A DNA stretch of 39,645 nt from Flavobacteriales bacterium (lineage in GTDB: Bacteria > Bacteroidota > Bacteroidia > Flavobacteriales_F > PHOS-HE28): positions 1 through 39,645 of the forward strand of contig JAHDVX010000029.1 of NCBI GenBank assembly GCA_023382455.1. Direction: 5' to 3'. Each line of letters begins with the position of its first letter. The first letter of the stretch is position 1. Below, piece by piece: positions 1 to 899 of this stretch. Both the position numbers and the translations under genes were made by a program. The notes under the pieces were generated by a model. It had not been told where the DNA came from. It saw only the letters and a list, made by a program, of their open reading frames with translations, and made no database searches.

Positions 1-132
1 TTCCCGAACGTGGACAAGAGCTTGGGGCCGGAGATGAAGAGCACCGGCGAGGCCATTTACTTCATCCGGGATCTGAGGGATCCGTTCTTCAGGCAGGTGT
101 ATGGGGAGCGGTCGATGTACCTAAGCCGGTGA
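1..132 (+). CDS. carB: Carbamoyl-phosphate synthase large chain, C-terminal fragment
   Basis: Only the last 43 codons are in the window; the gene enters from the left edge in frame 1. CarB makes carbamoyl phosphate from bicarbonate, ammonia and two ATP for pyrimidine and arginine synthesis in the cytoplasm. The visible part carries the CarB signature LGPEMKSTGEA (residues 8-18 of the fragment), followed by a short tail ending RQVYGERSMYLSR and TGA. In E. coli the corresponding motif is followed by an allosteric MGS-like domain of well over 100 residues; here the protein stops about 25 residues later. From memory, many flavobacterial CarB proteins end this way, so I do not read this as a truncation. 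The last 14 codons are repeated twice downstream (173-214 and 268-309), which is highly unusual. Confidence 0.9.
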   Translation, partial: FPNVDKSLGPEMKSTGEAIYFIRDLRDPFFRQVYGERSMYLSR

Positions 133-139
133 ACGGTTT

Positions 140-179
140 CCTGCCTGTCACTCCGAGCGGAGCCGAGGAGTCAGGCAGG
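140..179. repeat. REP-like hairpin after carB
   Basis: Arms CCTGCCTG (140-147) and CAGGCAGG (172-179) pair perfectly, and ACTCC (150-154) pairs with GGAGT (167-171), leaving a two-base bulge and a 12-base loop. It starts 7 bases after the carB stop, so it could act as a transcript-end structure, but no T-run follows as in an intrinsic terminator. The 3' arm overlaps the first bases of the second carB tail copy. The core (GTCACTCCGAGCGG) resembles the small dispersed GTCA-nn-CCGAG repeats common in Bacteroidota genomes; that resemblance is from memory. Confidence 0.65.
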
Positions 180-214
180 TGTATGGGGAGCGGAGTATGT
201 ACTTGAGTCGATGA
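173..214 (+). repeat. Second copy of the carB 3'-terminal codons
   Basis: These 42 bases translate to RQVYGERSMYLSR plus stop, identical in protein to the true end of carB at 91-132. The first 21 bases are identical to copy 1. The rest differs at seven positions, all synonymous: Ser TCG to AGT, Leu CTA to TTG, Ser AGC to AGT, Arg CGG to CGA. The copy lies in a different reading frame from carB (offset 82 bases) and is not attached to any gene body, so it is a relic or an alternative end, not a gene. Confidence 0.9.
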
Positions 215-230
215 AGAATCTGGATCCGTT

Positions 231-267
231 CTGTCACTGCGAGGCCCGGCCCTGCGGGCCGTGGCAG
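231..267. repeat. Second hairpin, inside the third carB tail copy
   Basis: CTGTCAC (231-237) pairs with GTGGCAG (261-267) with one G-T wobble, and GGCCCG pairs with CGGGCC inside it. It begins CTGTCACTGCGAG, closely matching CTGTCACTCCGAG of the hairpin at 140-179, so the two are likely members of one element family. It interrupts a carB-like tail: bases 214-231 read KNLDPF, matching the DLRDPF region of carB, and the tail RQVYEERSMYLSR resumes in the same frame at 268. Confidence 0.65.
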
Positions 268-309
268 AGGCAGGTTTACGAGGAGCGGAGCATGTACTTG
301 AGCAGGTAG
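268..309 (+). repeat. Third copy of the carB 3'-terminal codons
   Basis: These bases translate to RQVYEERSMYLSR plus TAG. Against copy 2 they differ at GTG/GTT, TAT/TAC, AGT/AGC (twice), CGA/AGG and TGA/TAG, all silent, and at GGG/GAG, the only amino-acid change (Gly to Glu). Upstream homology to carB extends at least to GGATCCGTTC (222-231), before the hairpin insertion at 231-267. The copy is not linked to a gene body. Confidence 0.9.
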
Positions 310-596
310 GGTAGCGCCAGTTGTCCAACAAGCTGTTGGACAATTGATCGACGGGCAGCTGTTGCACAATTGGGCTGTTGCCTGTGCGCGGCTATCTTGG
401 TCACATGCCTGTGAAGAAGAGGTCGTCCTCGTTGCGCGCCCTCGTTGCCGCAAGTGTTCCAGCCTGCCAAAGCTTTGCATTCCTGCCGGGCTGGGTCACT
501 TGTGGCAACGGGTCCATCAGGTCTTTTCGGTGATCATCGGTGAAGTCTTCAAGCTTCGAACCCATGGAACGAACACAGGCCCATAGGATGCAGCGG
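310..596. other. Intergenic stretch with inverted and direct repeats
   Basis: I see no convincing gene here. A perfect 10-base inverted repeat TTGTCCAACA / TGTTGGACAA with a three-base loop lies at 321-343. The 16-mer AGCTGTTGGACAATTG (331-346) recurs with one mismatch at 357-372. These could be a protein-binding site or remains of the events that repeated the carB tail. The rest, to the toxin gene end at 597, shows no coding signature I recognise. Confidence 0.5.
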
Positions 597-899
597 TCAA
601 ACGTTCTTCCTCTTCACCTTCTTCTTCGGGTCTTGGCTGGTATGGAATACGCGCAGCACGGCGATGTGGTCTTTCATCGGCCGGTACAGGATCACGAAAG
701 GGAAGCGGGACAAGGGCAACTGCCGCACGAGCCCGTGTACCCTGACAGCGCCATTAGGGAATTGCCCGATCCGCTGGTAGCAGGAATACACTTCATCGAT
801 GAAAGCGTCAGCCACACACAGGCTGCGCGCGGCATACCACCGTGCGGCACCGTTCACGTCCTCTACAGCCTCATCGGTGACCAGCACCGGCCTTGTCAT
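597..899 (-). CDS. ParE/RelE-family type II toxin
   Basis: A 100-residue protein with the ParE/RelE fold pattern: an N-terminal helix region (DEAVEDVNGAARWYAAR), a second helix (ADAFIDEVYSCYQRI), then the strands ending RFPFVILYRPMKDHIAVLRV and a basic tail KKKVKRKN. Family members inhibit DNA gyrase (ParE) or cleave mRNA on ribosomes (RelE); the LYRPMKDHIAVLRVFH section fits ParE better, but the target cannot be settled from sequence. Its ATG overlaps the stop of the antitoxin gene by ATGA (896-899), so the two are translationally coupled. It sits close to the repeated carB tails, suggesting an accessory insertion beside carB. Confidence 0.85.
   Translation of the reverse strand: MTRPVLVTDEAVEDVNGAARWYAARSLCVADAFIDEVYSCYQRIGQFPNGAVRVHGLVRQLPLSRFPFVILYRPMKDHIAVLRVFHTSQDPKKKVKRKNV

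Follow-up and report, generated by a model that had tools for sequence, protein, structure and literature searches.

The DNA analysed here (the window) is the whole of contig C29 of genome G000, 39,645 bases long, and it opens at the contig edge inside carB. Positions 1-132 of the forward strand carry codons 894-936 and the stop codon of this gene (numbering from the 936-aa CarB of G033); the remainder of carB stops at codon 843 of contig C9, and codons ~844-893 are absent from the G000 assembly. The C-terminal codons occur three times on the forward strand, at 91-132 (copy 1), 173-214 (copy 2), and 268-309 (copy 3), with coordinates and peptides exactly as a preliminary description of this DNA had given them. 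Copy 1 is very probably the working carB end in G000. It belongs to a 99-nt terminal unit from Met905 to the stop (34-132, forward strand), and this unit is the segment that recurs in relatives as orphan ends, i.e., carB ends displaced downstream of the gene. A spacer follows (133-172, forward strand), with a dispersed repeat at about 143-173 that has matches on contigs C1 (29 nt, exact) and C27 (28 nt, 93%) and in other same-genus genomes. Copy 2 consists of the 3' half only. Copy 3 is longer than first reported: it spans 211-309 of the forward strand, with an ATGAAGA start lying over the copy 2 stop, it is split by a hairpin (hairpin B, 233-267, forward strand) ahead of its 3' half, and most of its 5' half is missing. 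The repeats appear to start at codon 924 because of the inserts directly before them, the dispersed repeat ahead of copy 2 and the hairpin within copy 3.

Between copies 1 and 2, 7 bases in 4 codons are different, each change being silent; between copies 2 and 3 there are 9 base differences, which alter a single residue (G to E), and the stop varies between TGA and TAG. In rough simulations of random substitution (40,000 draws each), P was ~2.5e-5 for no residue change with 7 substitutions and ~5e-5 for at most one with 9. These results bear out two earlier proposals, that the tail copies differ almost only silently and that free neutral decay would not leave silent changes only. The serine codons TCG and AGT are more than one silent step apart, which suggests that the copies come from separate lineages. 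In a comparison of 29 ends, the nearest to each copy was a working carB end of other genomes: for copy 1 those of G004 and G033 (4 differences), for copy 2 that of G003 (2 differences), and for copy 3 those of G018 and G034 (3 differences).

Copy 3 is followed by a remnant of a YhcG/DUF1016 gene, namely its leader and first codons (310-437, forward strand), which runs collinearly with the sequence behind the G041 working carB end. Positions 268-440 of the window align with G041 through its working carB end, a palindromic leader, and the DUF1016 gene (194 columns, mean identity 90%), and the DUF1016 frame in G000 stops after 42 codons. Judging from this alignment, copy 3 is a former carB end with a decayed neighbour gene. 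The alignment across both the carB end and DUF1016 implies that what is the current arrangement in G041 survives in G000 as a fossil behind two other ends, and it is the strongest single support for displacement.

Downstream of this stack of ends lies a ParE-type toxin gene (597-899, reverse strand; PF05016), which may possibly be further cargo of the stack. The same stretch just behind the stack (597-1129) also holds a small frame upstream of the toxin gene. This frame has no Pfam match and is likely an antitoxin.

Orphan carB ends across the genus

We compared 45 genomes of a single genus, G000 among them; searches at family and order level gave the same 45. The named counterparts were mostly uncultured Flavobacteriales and Bacteroidota MAGs. 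Window positions 1-315 matched 40 of the 45 genomes, in some cases through the dispersed repeat only, and many of the matched contigs carry several carB ends each. In translated comparisons of these loci, carB is followed by unrelated genes and then by a carB end fragment. Relatives have from one to four displaced ends with foreign genes between carB and these ends; G004 has four orphan ends in alternation with single genes. Genes enclosed by two tail copies are found within the genus; the preliminary description had named genomes with an element in this position as support for its reading.

Of the 35 genomes in which a carB-type end was present, 23 had an orphan end, usually separated from carB by unrelated genes, and the other 12 showed none within the sequence examined. 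A uniform test, which compared the 99-nt end with as much as 10 kb of downstream sequence (E 1e-3 or lower), returned an orphan end in 17 of 34 genomes; G035 was dropped for its short sequence, and G010 and G029 were scored as lacking an orphan though their own end is one. Six further genomes were assigned by other evidence: the orphan lies beyond 10 kb in G024 and on another contig in G003, takes other forms in G021 and G038, and is itself the sole end found in G010 and G029.

Outside the genus, an orphan end was seen at 1 of 40 Bacteroidota carB ends with at least 1 kb downstream, in a set of lower identity (77-85%; 41 loci, L147-L187) that omits L146, which is on the same contig as G018 C282, and L145. 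The sole case is at 10312-10356 of L179, from a Bacteroidetes MAG (LacPavin record). L145 bears the label Planctomycetota; its orphan carB pieces resemble those of G030, and the contig probably belongs to the genus. When gene ends were used in a protein search (E 0.001), 16 of 35 genomes had second copies of the carB end, vs. 4 of 41 for a metalloprotease (G036, with a partial end, and G030, with two full ends on different contigs, uncounted) and 0 of 40 for the neighbouring YfhO (G038, with two long matches on different contigs, uncounted). The metalloprotease has two such end copies in G033.

The process is not unique to carB, as ~10 other genes of G033 keep an orphan end. Among 738 open frames (200 codons or longer) from a 1.2-Mb stretch of G033, 32 downstream matches to gene ends were found vs. 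9 to mid-gene sequence, and these ~10 genes, among them HisS-, UvrB-, and PepD-like genes (named by eye), were left after paralogs and shared sorting domains had been set aside by eye. On G033 contig C1, orphan 3' ends of other genes occur near 721657, 761663, 1568049, 1402165, 166022, 1658242, 614589, and 685427; they lie 0.1-4 kb downstream, and several are similar past the stop codon. A symmetry test on 836 open frames of G033, with genes having a mid-gene match removed, gave 21 end copies downstream and 20 start copies upstream (controls, 7 and 9), i.e., raw counts with no asymmetry between ends and starts; by eye, many of the gene-start matches resemble spurious frames. The symmetry scan, run on 28 window frames other than the cut carB, found nothing. 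The first 18-25 codons of carB itself are copied just upstream of the gene at L048 1868-1942 (G043) and L037 2418-2471 (G040), which may be the 5' mirror image of the orphan ends.

We noted that a hairpin splits many orphan ends at one point. Hairpin B occurs at the same place and in similar form in orphan ends of G008, G015, G018, G020, G033, and G043, and as a variant at that place in G024. Surveyed with hand-made patterns that miss some ends, it was absent, as was any other hairpin, from all 20 first carB ends and present in the last end found on all nine contigs that have it, of which only those of G000 and G024 have more than one orphan end. This distribution fits the order proposed earlier for the window, from copy 1 as the newest to copy 3 as the oldest. 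Window copy 3 and the third end of G024 both retain ATGAAG, after which most of the 5' half is missing. The likeliest reading is that a hairpin-bearing end is an old orphan end, inherited and recombined, on the far side of the stack; as it now stands, such an end may never have served as the working one.

In 24 orphan 3' halves compared with the nearest working end, a set that leaves out some long orphan ends classed as intact, there were 57 silent and 34 replacement differences, and the usual peptide was kept in 8. Hence, orphan ends do decay, and the window copies are unusually clean among them. The preliminary description had suggested that each copy once served as the real end of carB. For copy 3, which with its leader matches the working end of G041, this is supported; it does not extend to all orphans of relatives, some of which contain a hairpin or frameshift incompatible with a working carB.

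Exchanged ends, the Met905 boundary, and cargo

Among 18 full-length genes, the last 165 nt of carB correlated with the rest of the gene at r 0.09, against a mean of 0.65 (sd 0.09, minimum 0.47) for 156 other carB blocks. With 45-nt windows, terminal values ranged from -0.16 to about 0.4, and those of the interior averaged 0.46 and went down to -0.04 (the minimum of 256). The 15 pairs that are closest upstream (2.4-3.3% apart) are 8-18% different in the carB end, and the G017 orphan end equals the G042 working end over 42 nt, including the rare peptide RETYGK. By these sequence comparisons, the carB end has been exchanged between lineages. The exchanged sequence reaches ~165-250 nt from the stop, i.e., upstream of Met905; a decoupled zone beginning there is expected if crossovers fall at varied points of carB, and homologous recombination fits it better than a fixed crossover does.

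A scan for the motif at Met905 (ATGAAGAGC) found 19 orphan ends that begin there or within a base, so that their share among all orphans is not an unbiased figure. Upstream of these ends, the sequence mostly differs; G030, G039, and G043 share theirs and are not independent. In 10 of these, the ATG lies within 4 nt of the stop of an upstream frame 100-268 residues long; the remaining units of this type contain several frames, antisense frames, or no clear frame. Other orphan ends start near codons 849-892, and at 427 in G024; second junctions fall in many cases at the ATGA of Met905 and in others elsewhere. The setting of cargo stops at the Met905 ATG in 10 of 19 ends looks site-specific, and the recurrent start counts against random illegitimate joints, since such joints would scatter.

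Long displaced carB fragments starting near codons 415-427 or 518-525 follow a dispersed repeat in L115, L117, L133, L125, and L145, and most of them have a new ATG. A ~190-nt GC-rich dispersed repeat lies at L133 8571-8817 and 1403-1592, L117 19292-19533, and L125 8560-8800, with an Rfam DUF805b match beside it at L133 8518-8552. In inverted orientation, this repeat flanks the large inserts of G024, G025, G003, and G030; it was considered as marking element ends and dropped as a boundary marker because it matched in 38 of the 45 genomes, many times elsewhere. HEARO/IscB elements have a target preference that fits the ATGA site; we rejected insertion of such an element there, as no HEARO Rfam match reached the gathering threshold in 12 loci and the window. 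For IsrB, an NTGA motif is reported (PMC9581776).

In G018, a SacI-like restriction enzyme and a cytosine methylase are encoded between carB and an orphan end; YhcG/DUF1016 nucleases take this position in G033 and G041, and Fic, Imm40, and DUF4926 proteins do so in G025, G015, and G021, respectively. An Eco29kI-like enzyme with a methylase (G003) and, in G020, a further DUF1016 and a DUF5615 come immediately after an orphan end. In G002, for which we found no orphan end, carB is followed by a PIN_12 protein. The 11.7-kb insert of G024 has efflux-like genes by eye, and many other cargo proteins are lipoprotein-like by eye or have no match. At 19 of 40 ends (a list including three orphan ends without carB upstream, in G010, G021 C71, and G029), a frame on the same strand begins no more than 25 nt from the stop; several of these frames overlap the stop, and several are short or repeat-derived. 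Cargo may be expressed with carB.

Gut Bacteroidales carry acquired interbacterial defence arrays. The carB arrays, likewise in Bacteroidota, include immunity-type genes; unlike the gut arrays, they have mixed cargo (a restriction-modification pair, nucleases, lipoprotein-like and adhesin-like proteins) and no recombinase seen beside them.

How carB ends may be displaced

Serial displacement of carB ends is close to certain. Orphan ends with other genes between them, exchange of the carB end, and copy 3 as a former end with its neighbour are all shown by the sequence comparisons. Homologous recombination anchored in carB is the best-supported mechanism and a moderately likely one, and we lean, by a modest measure, towards reading the stack as the footprint of serial insertions at the carB 3' end through such recombination. 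DNA from a related lineage, with a carB end followed by other genes, would arrive and recombine by homology in the last ~100-250 nt of carB. The donor end would become the working end, with the donor's next gene behind carB (its start codon overlapping the carB stop in several genomes), and the old end would be pushed downstream as an orphan, its former neighbour being kept for a while before decay. Later deletions between repeats would then leave bare ends like those in the window. We infer both the inserting agent, which would be carB-anchored homologous recombination with no dedicated recombinase, and the way in which the second junction at Met905 forms. Several observations speak against this reading: the recurrent Met905 start and the cargo stops set close to it, the 12 of 35 genomes without an orphan end in the sequence examined, the single interior 45-nt stretches of carB whose correlations likewise come near 0, and the longer orphan copies with other starting points.

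Integrons are cassette arrays with an integrase and attC sites. About half of the Met905-type units are similar in having one frame and one ~100-nt site, in the same orientation, beside a fixed gene; unlike integrons, the carB stack has no adjacent integrase among the matches listed and no attC-like fold, and its site is the end of a protein gene. A recombinase encoded elsewhere might use the 99-nt carB end as an attachment site and move single-gene cassettes in trans. The Met905 start recurring in 19 orphan ends argues for such an enzyme, as does the cassette-like layout of 10 of them, where one frame fills the interval and stops at the site. The genus also encodes XerA/IntI-like recombinases (TIGR02249, 211 bits in G033 and 185 bits in G000), but these score below the 265-bit cut-off, and the genes are more than 1 Mb from carB in G033 and on another contig in G000. 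No unusual single-strand fold was found at the carB end (z -1.23 to 0.50 on six strands), the exchanged sequence goes upstream of Met905, and the left edges of inserts have, by eye, no one common sequence, several sharing a dispersed repeat. On balance, we regard a recombinase acting in trans as unlikely. Similarly doubtful is the wider claim that the last 32 carB codons and the stop are the recombination site of a dedicated trans-acting cassette system, an integron-like platform on a housekeeping gene; single genes, including defence and immunity genes, would then have their stop set on the Met905 ATGA, go in behind carB, be coupled to carB translation, and be stacked by arrival.

The XerA/IntI-like recombinases are located at L279 1453-2790 (reverse strand) and L283 675-1952 (forward strand), and their N-terminal extension bears a weak resemblance to DUF5710.

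At some protein genes, dusA and trmE among them, integrative elements replace the gene end, and gene-end replacement with displaced ends is their classic footprint. At carB, too, the end is replaced and the old end displaced beyond the insert; unlike at dusA and trmE, no integrase was seen in or near the inserts, the exchange goes upstream of a fixed core, and the inserts are serial and often of a single gene. Among the tyrosine recombinase (PF00589) matches listed for the 45 genomes, many of whose contigs are short, none lies near a carB end; a carB-end contig is shared only in G002, G023, G033, and G037, at distances of at least 140 kb. The 28 scanned proteins of carB loci, a part of the cargo, included no recombinase. 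The carB end had no match at E 1e-5 in 50,697 phage and 72,556 plasmid records and, as an exact pattern, none in IMG/VR, where one stretch encodes a relative with no locus returned for it. A phage or ICE that integrated at the carB end, its integrase since lost or unsampled, is improbable. The preliminary description had proposed an element repeatedly integrating at the carB 3' end and advised a look for recombinases near any distant tail copy: the serial displaced ends in relatives agree with it, but the element's own recombinase did not appear among the matches listed or the scanned proteins. A weak literature search, whose term also matches words like carbapenem, found no report of carB as an insertion site.

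Two further readings we consider very improbable. Tandem duplication of the carB end within one lineage followed by decay, or an assembly artefact, could be suspected from a window that starts at a contig edge inside carB and from the duplicated 3' ends downstream of ~10 other genes in 1.2 Mb of G033 (picked by eye), but the copies are closer to other genomes' ends than to each other, the changes between them are silent, and in relatives, G024 (9 contigs) and G033 (4 contigs) among them, kilobases of unrelated genes separate the ends. That orphan ends are hairpin (REP-like) mobile elements carrying a carB fragment would accord with hairpins at one point in many orphans and with the dispersed repeat before copy 2, but the exact hairpin A pattern has just three matches in 45 genomes, all in carB orphan ends, 15 of the 16 hairpin B matches in 1.2 Mb of G033 lie in one tandem array and the other in a carB orphan end, hairpin-free orphan ends exist, and no hairpin with a carB end was seen at unrelated loci.

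Displacement through homologous recombination, the reading that we favour, has counterparts elsewhere; rhs genes, for instance, undergo C-terminal displacement. For the T6SS arrays of Vibrio cholerae, a conserved sequence serves as the homology anchor, a new module is added at its 3' side, and the old one is pushed downstream, by a proposed mechanism akin to homology-facilitated illegitimate recombination; the same paper also mentions rhs C-terminal displacement alongside these arrays and compares them with integron cassette arrays (PMC5361080). This displacement model fits most of the carB data. As in T6SS and rhs arrays, the carB anchor is exchanged between lineages, and displaced anchor fragments lie downstream of the new module. 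Unlike in those arrays, a housekeeping biosynthetic gene serves as anchor and its protein stays the same, the cargo consists of separate genes of many kinds, and many orphans start at one codon. The recurrent Met905 junction at cargo stops is the part that a T6SS-type displacement model leaves unexplained, and it gives the cassette-system reading its opening.

In this uncultured Flavobacteriales genus, genes have been acquired one after another at the end of carB, a biosynthetic gene of essential type, and we saw no recombinase next to the inserts. Since the orphans preserve earlier ends in order, past horizontal transfers can be read from the locus. To our knowledge, displacement by homologous recombination is known mainly from toxin loci. 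If a dedicated enzyme makes the Met905 junction, carB would reveal a new cassette-capture system; otherwise, it would be a clean natural case of homologous-recombination displacement at a housekeeping gene.
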